64,000 nucleotides of DNA, taken from assembly GCF_014696315.1 (NCBI RefSeq), contig NZ_JACJPX010000006.1, positions 1-64,000 on the forward strand, read 5' to 3'. Both the position numbers and the translations under genes were made by a program. This document shows, piece by piece, positions 1-61,828 of the stretch; within the stretch, counting starts at the first letter, position 1; every line of letters starts with the position of its first letter. The notes under the pieces are model-generated. The model was not told where the DNA came from. It searched no databases and worked only from the letters and a program-made list of their open reading frames with translations. The DNA comes from Calothrix membranacea FACHB-236 (GTDB taxonomy: Bacteria; Cyanobacteriota; Cyanobacteriia; Cyanobacteriales; Nostocaceae).

Positions 1-1032
1 CCCCATGTTTGGGCAACAGTTACAAAATATGGTGCAATTGCTAGTTCGTTTGAAGCTGCACGCACTATTTTAACAGATTGGGGAATAAGCATTAGTCTAA
101 AGCGAATAGAACGCATCACATATCATTTTGGTAAGATTGCCCTAAATTTACGCCAATCTAAATTAAAAAGTTTAGAAAAGGGTAATTTACCTACTCTTAA
201 TGTTCTCAAAGACCAACGTGTTGTCATTGCTGTAGATGGTGGAAGAACGAGAGTGAGGATTAATAAAAAGGGTAGACGCTCCCTCAAGACTAATCGTCTA
301 GGCTTTACTGGAGAATGGGTAGAGCCAAAATTATTAACTATTTATACAGTAGATGAACATGGTAAAAAAATTAGGACATCATCTCTACCTATCACTAATG
401 ATGGTACATATTTAGGTTATGAAGCATTTCTCCTCATCTTAGAGATGTATCTAGTTAATTTGGGGATAAGTCAAGCTAAACAGGTTTTATTAGTGGCTGA
501 TGGGGCTGAGTGGATTTGGAAACATATTCCGCCTTTATTAGAGAAAGTAAAAGGCCCAACTGCCACTTATAAGCTATTAGATTTTTATCACGCTGCTTCC
601 CATCTACAAGATTTTGCTAATGCTGCTTTTACTACAGACGATGAGCGGCAATCGTGGTTTAAAAATGCTCGAAAAACTTTAAAGAAAGGTCAAGCTCTCA
701 ATTTAATGAGAAATATGGATGAATTTATTTCAACAGCAACTGGCGAGCGTTGTAAGATTTTAGTGCGAGAGCGTAATTACATTCTCAAAGCTTACCGTAG
801 GCGACTATTAAACTATCACTTAGTCGCAGCACATCAGCTACCTCTGGGTAGCGGTGCAGTTGAAAGTTTAATTCGTCAAGCTGTTAACTTACGCATGAAG
901 GGAAACAGTAAATTTTGGCTTCCAGATAATGCAGAGATTATGTTACATCTGCGATGTCAATGGATCGCTGGCAGTTGGGACAATTTTTGTAATTCTATTT
1001 TTTGTTCTTTCCTTAATCCCAGCAGTACCTAA
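1..1032 (+). CDS. ISKra4-like DDE transposase, 5' end outside window
   Basis: The frame is open from base 1, so the visible 343 residues are the C-terminal part of a longer protein; the GTG at 253 is an internal codon, not a start. The translation has the look of a DDE transposase of the ISKra4-like group: an Asp in VVIAVDGGRTRVR (about residue 79), a second Asp in LLVADGAEWIW (about residue 165), and a Glu in LGSGAVESLIRQ (about residue 285), followed by a basic RMKG segment. It would catalyse excision and insertion of its own element. Family knowledge supplies the DDE role; the exact IS family is inferred from motif style. The stop codon at 1030-1032 lies about 60 bases before a pPIWI-RE-like ORF, suggesting the element disrupted that locus. 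Confidence 0.8.
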   Translation, partial: PHVWATVTKYGAIASSFEAARTILTDWGISISLKRIERITYHFGKIALNLRQSKLKSLEKGNLPTLNVLKDQRVVIAVDGGRTRVRINKKGRRSLKTNRLGFTGEWVEPKLLTIYTVDEHGKKIRTSSLPITNDGTYLGYEAFLLILEMYLVNLGISQAKQVLLVADGAEWIWKHIPPLLEKVKGPTATYKLLDFYHAASHLQDFANAAFTTDDERQSWFKNARKTLKKGQALNLMRNMDEFISTATGERCKILVRERNYILKAYRRRLLNYHLVAAHQLPLGSGAVESLIRQAVNLRMKGNSKFWLPDNAEIMLHLRCQWIAGSWDNFCNSIFCSFLNPSST

Positions 1033-1090
1033 ACATTTTATACATTTTACTTGAATCTATGTTTTAGCGATCGCCTGACCTTGGAGTGGC
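1..1090 (+). mobile_element. Right part of an insertion sequence (ISKra4-like)
   Basis: The transposase gene marks an insertion sequence whose left end is outside the window. I could not locate the right terminal inverted repeat because its partner is not visible. The right border is therefore only bracketed, between the transposase stop (1032) and the next ORF (about 1094). A HIP1 octamer lies at about 1068. Confidence 0.45.
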
Positions 1091-1093
1091 GCA

Positions 1094-3340
1094 TTGTCAC
1101 TTGTTTTTGCCCGACTTCAGAAAATCGCGTTGCTCCCGCTAAAACCGTGGATTTTTCTACATTTAAGCTGTCAACGATATGGTCATGAGCCATTAATTCA
1201 ACCTAACTATAATCGTGATATATCTGTACTAATAGGAATGAATGAGGAACGCCTAACTGGTTATGGAATAGATTCAACACTTATACGTCTGACCATTGAG
1301 AATAATGGCAGAGAAAATAGTAATCAGTGGAAATTTCAATTACCAAATTTGTTAGCAGCATTCAAAGCACGTCCATTGCAAACAACAGAGAACATTTTTC
1401 AAAATCCTGCGAGATGTGGAAATTTAGATAATAATTCTAACTGGAATCAAGATGAATATTATTTAGTTCATGCTGAGGGATACAAGTATGAACATGAAAA
1501 TCATAAAAGAGGACACAGCATTAAACCTGGATTTAGTTTGCAAGAACGGGGTGACATAGTTGCTCAAGTATTAAATCTTTTAAACGGAGTTTTAATACCA
1601 GATAATCCAATGCAAAGCGATATTCCGGCTCCCTCTGGTCTAAAAACACCTTTGGCAATGCGCGATTATGAATATATTTCTAAACTTCTAACATTCACAA
1701 AAGAACAAAAACAGAGGTTAAGTGAAATAGAAATTAAGCAACGTGTAGATAAGCATCATCATGAACGACAAACAATCATTGCTAATTCTATTGAGCGCGC
1801 GTTGTCAGGAAAACCTATGCATATTTTTCTCTTGTGGCGCGAGCGAGATACCTGTGATGTAATTTACCAAACTTTGCGTGATGCTTTCCTACTCAATGAA
1901 GGAGAAAATTTTCCTGAGCATATCAAAGTATCATCTGTGTGGATTGATGATGCAACTCTTTTACAGCCACTTGATACAGCCGGATTTGTTCCTAAAGATG
2001 GTCAAGAGTTTGACAAACAAATCCGCAAGCAACATCAAATTAAACTTGATGCATGGCGTAGCTTTTTAAAACAGAAATTTATTCCTTTAATTGATTCCAG
2101 CACTAAACCTTACTGCTTCGCAATTGTTGAAATTGGACAAACAAAAAAGAAAGGAGTTCACCCTAAACAAAGCATTTACAGATCAGTTCGAGAAGCTTGT
2201 GTGTTAGAAAACATTGGTTCTCAGATGGTGCAAACTGTTAAACCAAAATCAGCCGATAAAGAATTTGAAAACACAAACGCATCGCCTTCTTATAGTAAGA
2301 AAACAACAGGACGTATTTTAAATGCTGTTTTAGATGTGTCACTACGCCAGATTGGGGTACTCTATGGACTGCCTTTAGAAGTCTATGAACGAGCGGGAAT
2401 ACCCCAAGAAATCGCACCAAATCTCGATGTAATTGCCCTTTGTCGGCGAAAAAGTCATCTAGGGCAAGATAATCTTCACTATGCCCTTGCTGTGCGTCTG
2501 CGGGCAACAGGTGCAGTCGATGTATTATTTCCTGAAAGTCAGGCTTGGATACCTTACCCACGAGCAGGGATTGAACTTGGGCAGATTTTCTCACGAGCAA
2601 GACGCGATCGCAATTATCTCAAAACAGTTCAGTTAAAGGGAATAGATTTAGCAAAATTTGCGGCGGATGTCATCACCCAAGTAGGCGAACGCCCGACTAT
2701 TGTATTGATTGAAGCTGATGTATGGCGTAATGAACGTGGCGAAGAAAATGGAGGTCAAGTTTGGTTTCAACTCAAAAATGAAAATATTCTTGCAAAGCGG
2801 GATGTGTTGGATTTCCAACACGTTCCAGGCCATGCTTGTATATATACTTGTGACCATAGTCAGCTCAAAAACTTGCTGGGAATTATTCGCTTCCGCACTG
2901 GGGACGAAACCACCCAATACATTACTAATCGACAAGCTTGGCATGAAAATTCCCTAGCGCGAGATTTAATTCGCCTAAGTGGCTTTTACGATAATTCCAT
3001 ACCTGATTTGTTACATTACTTTTCTGTTGGAAAATTACCGGAAACACAGAAAGCACAAGATACGCCAACAGTACGCGAACTCTACATCCTCGACTCTCAA
3101 AATGACGAATACGGTGCAAATATTGCATTCAAGCAGCAGCAGATACTAGAAATCGTACCCTTTTTTGTGCATCCAGATTTTCAAAAGACCGAAGAAAGCC
3201 TAAAATCTCTTTGCCGAGTGCCACACTACTTAAGATACTCCCCAGCATGGTCTATGGGTAATCTTCTCTTTCCATATCCGATGCATTTAGGTAAACAGCT
3301 AATAGAGGATCACTTATGTATCCTTGGTGTAGAAGTCTGA
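1094..3340 (+). CDS. pPIWI-RE-like protein (RNase H-fold/PIWI module), probably 5'-truncated
   Basis: The long ORF resembles the prokaryotic PIWI family named pPIWI-RE for conserved Arg and Glu residues (also annotated as DUF3962/DUF3893 or RNaseH_pPIWI_RE). Supporting features are a MID-like stretch around residues 240-380 (MHIFLLWRERDTCDVIY; PYCFAIVEIGQ), a PIWI/RNase H-like region around 400-640 (RQIGVLYGLPLEVY, LDVIALCRRKS, PTIVLIEADVWRN), and the C-terminal YPMHLGKQLIEDHL helix. Characterised members sit in operons with a restriction-type nuclease and a DinG-like helicase and are predicted to target invading nucleic acid; neither partner is visible here. The nominal start is TTG at 1094 without a ribosome site. 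The first in-frame ATG is at 1238, and the first 25 or so residues look non-native, so the N-terminus was probably lost when the neighbouring IS inserted. It may be a remnant or non-functional. Confidence 0.6.
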   Translation: MSLVFARLQKIALLPLKPWIFLHLSCQRYGHEPLIQPNYNRDISVLIGMNEERLTGYGIDSTLIRLTIENNGRENSNQWKFQLPNLLAAFKARPLQTTENIFQNPARCGNLDNNSNWNQDEYYLVHAEGYKYEHENHKRGHSIKPGFSLQERGDIVAQVLNLLNGVLIPDNPMQSDIPAPSGLKTPLAMRDYEYISKLLTFTKEQKQRLSEIEIKQRVDKHHHERQTIIANSIERALSGKPMHIFLLWRERDTCDVIYQTLRDAFLLNEGENFPEHIKVSSVWIDDATLLQPLDTAGFVPKDGQEFDKQIRKQHQIKLDAWRSFLKQKFIPLIDSSTKPYCFAIVEIGQTKKKGVHPKQSIYRSVREACVLENIGSQMVQTVKPKSADKEFENTNASPSYSKKTTGRILNAVLDVSLRQIGVLYGLPLEVYERAGIPQEIAPNLDVIALCRRKSHLGQDNLHYALAVRLRATGAVDVLFPESQAWIPYPRAGIELGQIFSRARRDRNYLKTVQLKGIDLAKFAADVITQVGERPTIVLIEADVWRNERGEENGGQVWFQLKNENILAKRDVLDFQHVPGHACIYTCDHSQLKNLLGIIRFRTGDETTQYITNRQAWHENSLARDLIRLSGFYDNSIPDLLHYFSVGKLPETQKAQDTPTVRELYILDSQNDEYGANIAFKQQQILEIVPFFVHPDFQKTEESLKSLCRVPHYLRYSPAWSMGNLLFPYPMHLGKQLIEDHLCILGVEV

Positions 3341-3409
3341 TTTTCTTAGAGAAAATTCACCAACCTATAGTAAAATGACTCACCATTGTTCTCAATACTT
3401 GATATTTCC

Positions 3410-5059
3410 ATGACCAGGTTTGTCTTACCAGTTAGACGATGGAGGAGGATGACGCAATTCCTCTCTTTATTCTGTCTATGTTTACTATTTGTTGTGAGTT
3501 GCAGTCCTCGCCAACAGACAACTACTTCTACTAGTTCTCCCAACTCTGCTACAGGGGATGGCAGGATTACTATCGGGACGACATCCAAGCCAAGAACCCT
3601 AGATCCAGCAGATGCTTACGAGTTGGCATCGTTGGGTTTAGTATTTAATATGAGCGATCGCCTCTATACTTATGAGCCTGGTAGCACAGAAATTAAGCCC
3701 CAGCTGGCGACAGCATTACCCAAAGTTAGTGCAGATGGTTTAACTTATACCATTCCTTTACGCCAAGGAGTAGTTTTTCACGATGGAACTCCCTTTAATG
3801 CGGAAGCAATGGCGTTTACGATCAAGCGCTTCATTGAAAATAAGGGTAAACCCTCCTTCTTGTTAGCTGATACAGTAGATTCTGTGAAAGCTACCAGTGA
3901 ATCTGAGTTAACTATCAAGCTGAAAAAACCTTTTGCGGCGTTTCCTTCTCTACTGGCGTTTTCTGGGGTTTGTCCAGTTTCACCAAAAGCTTATGAACTG
4001 GGTGCAGGTAAATTTAAGCCAGAGACTTTTGTAGGAACTGGCCCTTACAAATTAGCAGCCTATGGTACTGATTCGCTGCGTTTAGATGTATTTGATAAAT
4101 ATTGGGGCGAAAAACCTGCGAATCAGGGCGTTAATGTCCAAATTCAGACTAGCCCAGTAAATTTATTTAATGCTTTCCGTACAGGTGCAGTAGATGTAGC
4201 TTACCTTTCTTTGCAACCAGATCAAATTCGCAGCTTGGAAGAAGGCGCAAAAAAAGGAGATTGGCAAGCGATTACCGCCCAAGGTAGCGTAGTCAGCTAT
4301 ATGGTGCTGAACCGGAATCAGAAACCTTTAGATAAACCAGAGGTAAGACAAGCGATCGCTTCTCTAATTGATCGTCCACTCTTAAATCAGCGAGTCTTGT
4401 TTAATCAAGCTGATCCCCTTTACAGCATGATTCCTACGACATTTAATGTTTCCCAACCCTTATTTAAAGATCAATATGGGGATGGTAATGTTGATAAAGC
4501 AAAACAACTATTAACAGCTGCAGGTTTTTCTAAAGATAATCCAGCAAAAGTAGAAGTTTGGTATCCCGCTAGTTCACCTACCCGAAGTTTGGCAGCACAG
4601 ACAATAAAATCACTAGTCGATCAAAAAATGGAAGGCATACTAGTACTGGAAGCCAAAACTGTTGAGGGTGCTACCTTCTTTAAAGAAATTGGTAAGGGCT
4701 TGTATCCATCAGCTTTGCTTGATTGGTACCCAGACTTTTTAGATCCTGATAATTACGTGCAACCGTTTTTGGCTTGTCAAAAAGGTTCTGTTGCCAAGGG
4801 ATGCGAAGATGGGGGAAGCCAAACGCAAGGTTCTTTCTATTACAACGAAGCGGTCAATAAACTAATTGATCAACAACGGAAAGAACAAAATCCAGAGGCG
4901 CGTAAGCAAATATTTACTCAAATTCAAACACAAGTTTCAAATGATGTACCTTACGTTCCCTTATGGCAAAACAAAGATTATGTATTTGCCCAAAAAGGTG
5001 TCAGTAATGTTCAACTTGACCCCACGCAAAATTTAGTTTATAAGCCGATTAAAAAGTAA
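3410..5059 (+). CDS. ABC transporter substrate-binding lipoprotein, family 5 (peptide/nickel type)
   Basis: This is a 549-residue extracytoplasmic solute-binding protein of the DppA/OppA/NikA class. The N-terminus has basic residues, a hydrophobic core and a lipobox ending FVVSC, so Cys31 should be lipidated. The mature part contains the class signature around residues 85-120 (LATALPKVSADGLTYT, then FHDGTPFNAEAMAFTIKRF) and the usual TGPYKL turn. The ligand (peptide, nickel chelate or other) cannot be read from sequence. I prefer ATG 3410 over the upstream TTG 3386; another candidate is ATG 3449, directly behind GGAGGAGG. A matching permease follows after about 110 bases, but a second permease and ATPases are not encoded nearby, so they must be elsewhere. 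Confidence 0.88.
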   Translation: MTRFVLPVRRWRRMTQFLSLFCLCLLFVVSCSPRQQTTTSTSSPNSATGDGRITIGTTSKPRTLDPADAYELASLGLVFNMSDRLYTYEPGSTEIKPQLATALPKVSADGLTYTIPLRQGVVFHDGTPFNAEAMAFTIKRFIENKGKPSFLLADTVDSVKATSESELTIKLKKPFAAFPSLLAFSGVCPVSPKAYELGAGKFKPETFVGTGPYKLAAYGTDSLRLDVFDKYWGEKPANQGVNVQIQTSPVNLFNAFRTGAVDVAYLSLQPDQIRSLEEGAKKGDWQAITAQGSVVSYMVLNRNQKPLDKPEVRQAIASLIDRPLLNQRVLFNQADPLYSMIPTTFNVSQPLFKDQYGDGNVDKAKQLLTAAGFSKDNPAKVEVWYPASSPTRSLAAQTIKSLVDQKMEGILVLEAKTVEGATFFKEIGKGLYPSALLDWYPDFLDPDNYVQPFLACQKGSVAKGCEDGGSQTQGSFYYNEAVNKLIDQQRKEQNPEARKQIFTQIQTQVSNDVPYVPLWQNKDYVFAQKGVSNVQLDPTQNLVYKPIKK

Positions 5060-5062
5060 TTA

Positions 5063-5165
5063 TGAGTCAAGAGTCAAAAGTCCATAGTCCAGAATCTCAT
5101 GAGTATTGACTATTGACTCTTCATTTTGACTCTTGACCTTTTACCCTTGACTCTTGACTTTATAA
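5063..5165. repeat. Degenerate heptamer-type repeat cluster (TTGACTC-like)
   Basis: The spacer between the solute-binding protein and the permease is made of repeated GAGTCAA / TTGACTC units in both orientations (for example GAGTCAAGAGTCAAAAG near 5063 and CCTTGACTCTTGACTT near 5144), so it can fold on itself. This is the short tandemly repeated repetitive sequence type known from heterocystous cyanobacteria. It creates a spurious in-frame extension of the permease ORF. Confidence 0.7.
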
Positions 5166-5167
5166 AT

Positions 5168-6193
5168 ATGTCTCGATCCAAAGCTTTACAATATTACATT
5201 GCTTCGCGGTTACTATTAGCACCACTCCAGCTATTAACTATTATCACTATCGTATTTCTCTTACTCAGAGCAACACCAGGCGATCCTGCAGATGCAATTC
5301 TGGGCGGACGTGCGCCAGAAAGCGCAAAAGCGGAATTACGCAAACAACTGGGTTTAGATTTACCTTTGTGGTTACAGTATTTAAATTATTTAGGAAACTT
5401 ACTGCGCTTTGATTTAGGAACTTCTTTAACAAGTCGGGGACAAAATGTTGGGGATATTATTGGGCAATATTTTCCCGCGACAGTAGAGTTAGCTGTATGT
5501 AGTATGGCAGTTGCTTTAATTGTGGGAATTGTAGTTGGGACGCTTTCGGCTTCTCGTCCTGGAACAGCTGTTGATGCTGGCGGACGTTTATTTGGAATTA
5601 TTACTTATGCTCTCCCAATGTTTTGGGCGGGAATGATTCTGCAGTTAATTTTCTCAGTCCAACTACGCTGGTTTCCCAATTCCAACCGCTTTCCACCAAA
5701 TCTTCCGGCTCCTACTCATATTACTGGGTTGTATACCCTGGATAGCTTACTTGCTGGTAACTTCAGCCAATTTTTTACATCATTACACCATATTGCCCTT
5801 CCTAGCTTGACTCTGGGAATTTTGTTGAGTGGAATTTTTGAACGGATAGTGCGCGTCAATTTAAAGCAGACTCTACAAGCAGATTATGTAGAAGCTGCTA
5901 GAGCCAGAGGTATTCCAGAAAACAAAATTTTAGTTTCCCATGCTTTGAAAAATGCTTTGATTCCAGTAATTACAGTTTTAGGGCTAACCTTTGCTTCTTT
6001 GTTAGGTGGAGCAATTTTAACTGAAGTTACATTTTCTTGGCCTGGGTTAGCCAACCGACTATATCAAGCAATTTCCGATCGCGATTATCCTACAGTTCAG
6101 GGAGTACTAGTATTTTTTGGTGCGATCGTTGTCAGTGCCAGTATTTTAATTGATATTTTAAACGCTTATGTCGATCCACGGATTCGTTATTAA
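5168..6193 (+). CDS. ABC transporter permease, DppB/OppB type
   Basis: This 341-residue inner-membrane permease has about six hydrophobic segments. It carries the ABC-permease EAA loop, EAARARGIPENKILVSHALKN (about residues 240-260), which docks to the ATPase. The N-terminal RATPGDPADAILGG segment and the C-terminal DPRIRY are typical of the DppB/OppB/NikB group. The start is ATG 5168 (MSRSKALQYY); the 14 codons available upstream are repeat DNA. It is presumably co-expressed with the preceding solute-binding lipoprotein to import the same ligand. The normally paired DppC permease does not follow; a hicBA pair does. Confidence 0.88.
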   Translation: MSRSKALQYYIASRLLLAPLQLLTIITIVFLLLRATPGDPADAILGGRAPESAKAELRKQLGLDLPLWLQYLNYLGNLLRFDLGTSLTSRGQNVGDIIGQYFPATVELAVCSMAVALIVGIVVGTLSASRPGTAVDAGGRLFGIITYALPMFWAGMILQLIFSVQLRWFPNSNRFPPNLPAPTHITGLYTLDSLLAGNFSQFFTSLHHIALPSLTLGILLSGIFERIVRVNLKQTLQADYVEAARARGIPENKILVSHALKNALIPVITVLGLTFASLLGGAILTEVTFSWPGLANRLYQAISDRDYPTVQGVLVFFGAIVVSASILIDILNAYVDPRIRY

Positions 6194-38519: not shown

Positions 38520-40148
38520 TTATGGCTGATTGGGAATTTTGACTGCTCCAGTGGAACTAGCGGGTACAGTCCACCAAGCAAGACCGTAAGATTGAGTAGG
38601 CTCGTTGACTTGTTGACGCATTTGGACGCGGATTTTGTAATTTCCATTCGCAGGAATAGGGCAGAAAATGTGTTCTACACTATCAACTGGGCTAGTAGAT
38701 GAGCAAACAGTAGCCGCATCTTGATTTTGACCATCAGCTTTTACAAGATAAAGGTCAAGATTATTCAAACCGCGATCGCGGAAACTATCTCCGACATCAT
38801 AAAGCTCATTTTTATTGCGATCGTTAAGCTCTACCAACCTGTCCCAAGTCAAGGTGATAGCAACGAAACTTCCTTGTTTTAAAGGTTTAGCTAGGGCATA
38901 TTCTACAGGTGCAAGTGCATCGACTGTGCGGTAATCCCAACCAATAGCAGGTGCAACAGTTGATGGCTGCCATTGACCTGCGCTAAATTGCTGATAAGCG
39001 CGAAATGCATTCAAATGACCTGTTCCCATTTGTGAATCTAAGGGAATTTTGGGGTCTTGATAAGCATCCAAAGCGAGCCAATCTTTATTTTGTTTATCAA
39101 TGATTGTGCGCGTCATTCCCAACCGCAAACCATCACCGCTATCTTGAATTTTGTCGGCGGAATTCATTAATATAGCTTTCATCACCTGATGACGGCGAGA
39201 ATCAATACTCCAATTAGGTTGTTTTGTTCGTAACTGGCGATCGCCAAATTCCTGCAATAAAGCAACGGTAGCTGTTAGATGGGGTGCTGCAAAGCTTGTC
39301 CCTGTCACCTTATTCAGTTTGCCATCAGGATTGAGCAGCGCAATATTACTGCCAGGCGCAACTATACTAATAGCACGCCGTCCACCTATATTAAACTCCT
39401 TCCCAACTAGCCTACCACTCGCTCCCTGGTCAGCACCAGCTAGATTAGAAACGTCAACTTTATTAAAAATTCCTCCCCGCCGAGATGAAAAAGCCACGTT
39501 CATGGCATTAAAATTATCTGTAGGGATAGGAATCCCGCCTTTACCTTGGTTGCCTGCGATCGCATACACAACATCATGAACGCGACTAGACCAGTCAATA
39601 CATAGTGTCAGTAAAGCATTACCATCTAAAAGAGCATCGGGGCGCGGATCGCGATTGAGGGGTTCGCCAAAGCTAAAATTAATAGCACGAACATCACCAG
39701 CATTTTGTAAGGCTATGTGTTGAGCTGATAAACATTCTTCTGGTTGACCCATGTTTTTAGTCGAGCCAACAGCCGAAGAATAAAGTCGTGCTTGTGGCGC
39801 AACTCCCGGCCAAGCTTTATCTTTACTGACCATTACACCAGCAACATTATAAGCATGGGAGTCAACGCCACTATTTGATTGAGCAGGGCCATTGCGTAAA
39901 AAAACTGCGGCTAGAGATATAGCACGATTTTTAGACACGGCTTTATCCCAACCAAACATTCCCGGTCGTCCGATTTCCACCTGACCAATAGCGATTTTGC
40001 GCCCACTCAAATTATAAGGAGCTTGGTGTAACCTTAAAGCATCAATACCATTGGTGCCAAAAGAAGTTTCATAAACCGCAGCTAGTACTGGCAAACTCAA
40101 ACAAGAAGCACTTAATCCCCAAATTATCCAAGTTAGTTTTTTAGTCAT
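38520..40148 (-). CDS. Exported subtilisin-like (S8) serine peptidase
   Basis: This 542-residue secreted protein has an N-terminal signal peptide (residues 1-23, cleavage near VLA-AV). The S8 core is recognisable: His in SHAYNVAGVMVS, oxyanion Asn in AIAGNQGKGG, and the nucleophile Ser in TGTSFAAPHLTATVALL. At the position of the catalytic Asp the motif reads IAIGQVEIG, with Glu in place of Asp. A C-terminal beta-sandwich domain (about 400-540) with LTWDRLVELND and NLDLYLV resembles bacterial pre-peptidase/P-like domains. It may still be active, since Glu serves in the related sedolisins. The start codon is embedded in a TTTGTCA repeat tract. Confidence 0.85.
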   Translation of the reverse strand: MTKKLTWIIWGLSASCLSLPVLAAVYETSFGTNGIDALRLHQAPYNLSGRKIAIGQVEIGRPGMFGWDKAVSKNRAISLAAVFLRNGPAQSNSGVDSHAYNVAGVMVSKDKAWPGVAPQARLYSSAVGSTKNMGQPEECLSAQHIALQNAGDVRAINFSFGEPLNRDPRPDALLDGNALLTLCIDWSSRVHDVVYAIAGNQGKGGIPIPTDNFNAMNVAFSSRRGGIFNKVDVSNLAGADQGASGRLVGKEFNIGGRRAISIVAPGSNIALLNPDGKLNKVTGTSFAAPHLTATVALLQEFGDRQLRTKQPNWSIDSRRHQVMKAILMNSADKIQDSGDGLRLGMTRTIIDKQNKDWLALDAYQDPKIPLDSQMGTGHLNAFRAYQQFSAGQWQPSTVAPAIGWDYRTVDALAPVEYALAKPLKQGSFVAITLTWDRLVELNDRNKNELYDVGDSFRDRGLNNLDLYLVKADGQNQDAATVCSSTSPVDSVEHIFCPIPANGNYKIRVQMRQQVNEPTQSYGLAWWTVPASSTGAVKIPNQP

Positions 40149-40280
40149 TTGTCATTTGTCATTTGTCATTTGTCATTTGTCATTGGGTAATTGGTAATTG
40201 GTAATTGGAATTGGGTGTTTGGTGTTGGTAATTTACCCTCATCCCCAGTCCCCAGTACCCAGTCCCCAATCCCTAGTCCG
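40144..40280. repeat. Tandem heptamer tracts (TTTGTCA x5, AATTGGT x3, CCCCAGT)
   Basis: Three adjacent short tandem repeats lie between the divergent S8 peptidase and rpe genes: TTTGTCA in about five perfect copies, AATTGGT in about three, then CCCAGTC/CCCAGTA units. This is the classic cyanobacterial short tandemly repeated sequence class. Confidence 0.8.
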
Positions 40281-61744: not shown

Positions 61745-61828
61745 TTGTCCTCTGCCATTTGTTCTTTGTCATTAGTTATTGGTCATTTGTTGTTGACTAA
61801 TGACCAATGACCAATGACCAATGAAGAA
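61745..61828. repeat. TGACCAA/TTGGTCA heptamer repeats
   Basis: The spacer between the DUF269 gene and the CCE_0567 gene contains TCATTTG/TTGGTCA units and, in the opposite orientation, ATGACCAATGACCAATGACC, forming a self-complementary structure. It is the same repeat class as at 40144 and 29076. Confidence 0.7.

Follow-up and report, generated by a model that had tools for sequence, protein, structure and literature searches.

Positions 1138-3340 of the window (the whole 64-kb stretch of DNA analyzed here, namely, the first 64 kb of contig C121) very probably represent the 3' remnant of a pPIWI-RE island (PADLOC 'Ppr') in a Nostoc-like cyanobacterium, with insertion sequence (IS)-associated loss of the island's middle; we put the probability of this reading at about 0.92. 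Most likely, the gene is a dead leftover and not a new minimal system. The family is known, the window copy is a beheaded remnant of it, and the finding itself is ordinary. Many related cyanobacteria also carry damaged copies, and this wider pattern, not the window gene, might merit follow-up, the observations on spread and on an accompanying HTH + IrrE pair being modest. The genome consists of 8.81 Mb in 164 contigs, with completeness given as 100, and base 1 of the window already lies within a transposase ORF. The features at the start of the window are as follows:

1..1137, plus strand: 3' part of an ISKra4-like insertion sequence, with a transposase ORF at 1-1032 that is open at the contig start, and the right end of the IS at 1137
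1084..1102, plus strand: weak terminator-like hairpin (8 pairs, 3 of them G-C) plus T-run, located in the end of the IS immediately ahead of the remnant
1094..1137, plus strand: TTG apparent start codon of the ORF and the codons that follow it, inside the IS and not part of the PIWI gene
1138..3340, plus strand: pPIWI-RE remnant, codons 258-990 plus stop, 82% identical to the full-length relative L012
2453..3316, plus strand: RNase H (PIWI) domain, covering positions 12-287 of 288 of the PF13032 profile

The original prediction had placed a start-less pPIWI-RE-like gene at 1094-3340, about 60 bases downstream of a transposase gene. The transposase ORF indeed ends at 1032, and the family call was borne out by significant matches in two libraries, to PF13032 (RNaseH_pPIWI_RE; hmmscan E 1.3e-19, 71.5 bits against a cut-off of 25, ORF residues 454-741) and to PADLOC PprPIWI (E 8.4e-34, 115 bits, profile 231-711 of 718). 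The ORF list of the window does contain a 748-aa ORF with a TTG start codon at 1094-3340 on the plus strand; its 5' boundary, on the other hand, is an artefact, as the first 44 bases (1094-1137, about 15 codons) belong to an IS end that recurs at other contig ends, and homology to relatives starts at residue 16 of the ORF (around window position 1138 by DNA). The full gene has 990 codons in the relatives L011 and L012. Alignment with full-length relatives showed that PIWI residues 1-257 and the native start are gone, so that the gene is start-less in the literal sense and lacks 257 N-terminal codons, while the remnant frame is open across 733 codons. The X domain (PF13111) was matched only over profile positions 204-349 of 396, with 16 bits (cut-off 30.5), compared to 56.7 bits for full-length L011; the remnant is thus not a complete pPIWI-RE protein with an N-terminal X domain.

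What is left of the gene is well conserved. In an alignment of the window copy with 10 other pPIWI-RE proteins, six of them from a distant class (L139, L142, and L143, with broken or partial ORFs, were excluded beforehand), the window copy was never the odd one out in the 37 columns where at least 10 of the 11 proteins agreed. Every R and E common to the other ten was kept (e.g., R841, R843, E847, E928, and R956 in L012 numbering), and the conserved positions of the family were retained from 260 onward. A search of solved structures with a full-length relative gave nothing meaningful (two matches, E ~0.6, to triosephosphate isomerase), and Rfam gave no match above threshold in the window. Elsewhere in the window, at 40144-40279 and 61756-61824, there are arrays of short tandem repeats, most with 7-base units (GTCATTT, GGTAATT, TCCCCAG, and TGACCAA).

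The other half of the island was located by querying the genome with 6.7 kb of DNA from L012 (Nostoc sp. MG11), reaching from IrrE through the 5' part of PIWI. This query matched two places, window 1143-1188 and C54 149-1863 (82%), the latter containing the IrrE, HTH, and REase genes of an L012-type island. The HTH and IrrE genes on C54 are both open and are divergent from the REase gene, of which codons 1-239 were matched by tblastn (up to ~238 by the DNA junction) before its frame runs directly into an IS end (C54 bases 1-101). Since the nuclease domain occupies REase residues 249-373 in L011, it has been lost in this genome, where the gene exists only as the C54 fragment. A helicase protein query gave no match in the genome, while the same query matched at ≥60% identity in 32 other family genomes among the matches listed, serving as a positive control. 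The sole PF18155 match in the genome was sub-threshold (14 bits, cut-off 25) and contained four stops, and PF13032 and PF13111 revealed no second PIWI gene, with PF13032 reaching 73.1 bits at the remnant locus only. In sum, about 4.85 kb (by arithmetic on L011 and L012 coordinates), encoding the first 257 PIWI residues, the DinG-like helicase, and the nuclease domain of the REase, was not found by DNA, protein, or profile searches and has left no trace in the assembly. The original prediction saw neither partner gene in the window, and this agrees with the searches of the genome, in which REase DNA turned up on C54 alone and no helicase was located.

In the congener G018, which is assembled in 7 contigs, both flanks are directly seen to be contiguous within one 20-kb stretch at 92-96% identity, in the order C54 7372-946, C54 552-103, window 1138-2300, and window 2296-6192. 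C54 and C121 are therefore two sides of one locus, and within this genus the copies of the window genome and G018 are at one site. Both broken ends, and the IS end at each of them, are likewise observed directly. The IS end sequence of the window recurs in contigs C152, C54, C39, and C29 in two variants, one starting C54, C39, and C29 and the other present on C121 and C152; the two are 92% alike after reverse-complementing one of them, i.e., they are near-identical inverted repeats. As the flanks on C39 and C152 have a 9-bp duplication in common, the variants correspond to opposite ends, left and right, of a single IS. Between the C54 and C121 flanks no target duplication was found, as is expected if the IS marks a deletion. 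The element resembles the ISKra4 family in matching the NF033572 profile (transposase E 7.5e-33, profile 123-422), in its inverted-repeat ends, and in the 9-bp target duplication at another copy; it differs in scoring below the curated cut-off (114 bits against 205), its 5' part being cut off by the contig start. With the two broken ends of the island abutting two ends of one IS type, and contiguous in G018, the degraded-remnant option of the original prediction is upheld.

We propose that, in the ancestral locus, the IrrE and HTH genes would have pointed left and the REase, DinG-like helicase, and PIWI genes right, and that the ISKra4-like element would now lie between REase codon 238 and PIWI codon 258, the ~4.85 kb between them having possibly been lost through a deletion next to the IS or when two direct copies of the IS recombined. 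The assembly breaks at this very IS, so that the physical joining of C54 and C121 through the IS, like the deletion mechanism, is a probable reconstruction. The remnant is presumably recent and non-functional and would make no working protein, given that the native start, most of the X domain, the nuclease domain, and the helicase are missing; also, 900-1500 held no promoter-like site, where chance alone would give 2.4, and the upstream region contains the weak terminator-like hairpin (one such site found, compared to 0.4 expected in shuffles).

The alternative that survives best, although we consider it highly unlikely, is a minimal orphan variant, in which MID and RNase H domains are still made, from the TTG in the IS or from a downstream ATG, and work alone or with host nucleases. 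The 733-codon open frame, the low pairwise dN/dS, and the conserved positions kept from 260 on would all fit this, as would the standalone pPIWI-RE genes reported in other bacteria (PMC3702460). However, the open frame is explained equally well by recent breakage, whole genes within a triad occur in related genomes, and the region upstream has no promoter-like site and one weak terminator-like site. The gene is also broken at an IS junction, and the opposite end of this IS type truncates the REase gene; with an IS junction on both halves, the minimal-variant reading was rejected. The predicted version of it, a minimal variant acting with partners elsewhere, found no support, the helicase query having come up empty, PF18155 having given only a sub-threshold match, PF13032 and PF13111 having matched this locus alone, and the REase fragment being devoid of its nuclease domain.

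The evolutionary rates do not settle this argument. Synonymous divergence from G015 was 0.127 for the remnant and 0.122 for the flanking oppA, indicating that the remnant was inherited together with its neighborhood. Pairwise dN/dS of the remnant was 0.14-0.22, a range that, taken alone, would suit a gene under selection; branch dN/dS varied strongly with partner and outgroup (0.15-0.42 for the window genome, G000, and 0.13-0.89 for G015), and oppA was far more constrained (0.0065). On these estimates, recent death is not distinguishable from weak constraint.

Even less likely is an assembly artefact, with the island intact in the organism and its middle either unassembled or on an omitted contig. 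C54 and C121 do both end at or in the IS repeat, and the genome is in 164 contigs, but a unique 4.85-kb stretch is no repeat and should assemble, and the middle was absent by DNA, protein, and profile search, while the protein query found matches in relatives and completeness was 100. That two separate IS copies entered REase and PIWI and the middle moved elsewhere without being deleted is barely credible, as the lack of a common target duplication in the C54 and C121 flanks, which it would explain, is set against a middle without trace in the genome and flank orientations that fit a single IS.

We also considered whether the breakage was shared with the sister species, and this was rejected, as the lesions in G015 and G018 differ from that of the window. 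The G015 contig begins in an apparently different transposase (judged by eye) beside PIWI codon ~558. In G018, an IS5-like element (by eye) interrupts PIWI at codon ~645, and the REase and helicase genes carry other lesions. The REase and helicase remnants of G018 are about 1 kb apart, and the DNA between them (L077 8776-9776) matches neither of the two reference genes; contigs C58 and C106 of G015 hold DNA matching this stretch.

Among 217 genomes of the family, 36 gave a match to the full-length PIWI query, and the states of the islands were read from tblastn maps. REase, helicase, and PIWI were uninterrupted in 11 of the 36, including G105, in which IrrE is interrupted. Parts of G017, G002, and G202 that end at a natural terminal stop were counted as uninterrupted. 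PIWI was whole in an island cut by a contig end in three genomes (G137, G206, and G133), and whole with a broken or replaced partner in four (G214, G207, G139, and G136). It was broken or partial in 17/36, among them the window genome, G015, and G135 (first 43-45 codons missing, 3' end near a contig end), and the match in G131 (1/36) was too weak to call. Weak second matches in G016 (C17) and G124 (C1:7386127) were not counted as islands. PIWI was thus uninterrupted in 18/36 genomes (G131 being among the other 18), compared to 15/18 for a PLD-helicase comparator (Fisher p 0.021), which is small and has one of its three broken copies in a 72%-complete genome of 1000 contigs. For the helicase, 13 of 32 genomes had an uninterrupted gene, compared to 70 of 81 distant-class places among the matches listed (p 2e-6; 13/28 and p 6e-5 without four contig-limited cases), with an intactness cut-off (ORF ≥950 aa) that was the analyst's choice and a distant set that is biased, weak fragments falling below threshold. 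These figures are suggestive of an excess breakage of pPIWI-RE islands.

The flanks of 22 fetched islands and the window genome, compared by blastn, fell into 11 groups for the 3.5 kb outside IrrE and 13 groups for the 3.5 kb outside PIWI, indicating that the island occupies numerous sites, in keeping with a system that moves horizontally; the window genome grouped with G018 alone on both sides. Judged by eye from their ORFs, the inserts in the islands presumably include several transposase types (IS982-, IS630-, IS5-, and IS4-like). The helicase of G193 is interrupted by a ~1.8-kb stretch with what we take, by eye, to be an IscB-like HNH ORF (L079 7671-9441), and G124 has between its helicase and PIWI fragments a 534-aa gene (L063 7030-8634) that by eye we assume to be reverse-transcriptase-like.

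In six genomes, a PLD-nuclease/helicase gene, divergent from PIWI, adjoins helicase and/or PIWI remnants:

L014 6292-8994, L080 6160-8856, L085 8447-9436, L082 8489-11401, L083 9464-12376, L089 5936-8848: PLD-nuclease + helicase genes

A first kind occurs in G135, G136, and G146 (the G136 copy being itself cut to 330 codons), and a second kind, ~29-30% identical to the first, in G016 (Nostoc sp. T09), G156, and G208. The L014 and L018 proteins carry PF13091, PF04851, and PF00271, with C3a139 'HKD+Snf2' as their best PADLOC match. In G208 a mere scrap of PIWI is left, ~1.2 kb from the PLD-helicase gene, and G016 has a second locus, where a gene of the first kind adjoins matches to the helicase and to HTH/IrrE.

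All 21 islands with an REase match contained HTH and IrrE/M78 genes as a divergent pair (one IrrE interrupted, one HTH partial):

L051 960-1875; L012 3388-4303: HTH + IrrE/M78 pair, divergent from REase

A phmmer search (L012 proteins as queries, E 1e-3) found neither HTH nor IrrE at the six distant-class pPIWI-RE loci, but could miss distant versions. The pair resembles a derepression switch of the ImmR/ImmA type. No report of its pairing with pPIWI-RE was found in the literature searched, which may not include every published account. The main text of the pPIWI-RE paper makes no mention of IrrE, ImmA, or Xre, though it does describe REases with a fused HTH domain and, as a rarity, a zincin-like domain fused to a standalone PIWI (PMC3702460). 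In PMC7641849, the string 'PIWI-RE' is merely part of 'Piwi-related', and that paper is irrelevant here. It is possible, and we offer this only tentatively, that heterocystous cyanobacteria have a distinct five-gene pPIWI-RE class, which would be switched by the divergent HTH + IrrE/ImmA-like pair and be costly enough for repeated inactivation (by different IS types, deletions, and stop codons), its slot being re-used by other defence-like genes (the two PLD-nuclease/helicase kinds and the reverse transcriptase-like gene).

These results remove a tempting false lead, that of a minimal orphan relative of prokaryotic Argonautes, and teach that, for a PIWI ORF at an IS border, the contig ends should be checked before a variant is named. 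The comparison also supplies naturally inactivated loci, along with intact sisters, for a system that has seen hardly any biological testing, and the HTH + IrrE/M78 genes are a candidate regulator pair accompanying this pPIWI-RE class.

The closest known systems include the pPIWI-RE three-gene island (Burroughs et al. 2013, PMC3702460), which is predicted there to be a nucleic-acid-guided restriction system, with PIWI sensing an RNA-DNA hybrid, DinG unwinding, and REase cutting. The window gene belongs to the same PIWI family, and its relatives share the REase-DinG-PIWI order, the intact island L011 matching PADLOC PprRE, PprDinG, and PprPIWI. The relatives differ in carrying the extra divergent HTH + IrrE/M78 pair, and the window genome differs in having an REase cut at codon 238, no detectable helicase, and a PIWI without its N-terminus, and hence does not hold a three-gene Ppr system. 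A tested member of the family, likened to the window gene by description, is PsPIWI-RE of Pseudomonas stutzeri, which is reported to be an RNA-guided DNA nuclease and a DNA-guided RNA nuclease, with a role in DNA replication and cell division favored by its authors over defence (PMC10991935); as described there, it is a whole protein in a whole cluster, whereas the window copy lacks its front end and belongs to a broken cluster. With the PIWI start and 257 residues, the REase nuclease domain, and the helicase gone, neither literature model can operate as proposed in the window genome. Standalone pPIWI-RE genes, which according to Burroughs et al. 2013 (PMC3702460) occur in Bacillus, some proteobacteria, and actinobacteria, likewise have no adjoining REase or DinG gene. 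However, those are described as independent genes in genomes without a related REase or DinG, while the window copy is a truncated triad member, the other broken half of which, with its REase fragment, is still in the genome on C54.
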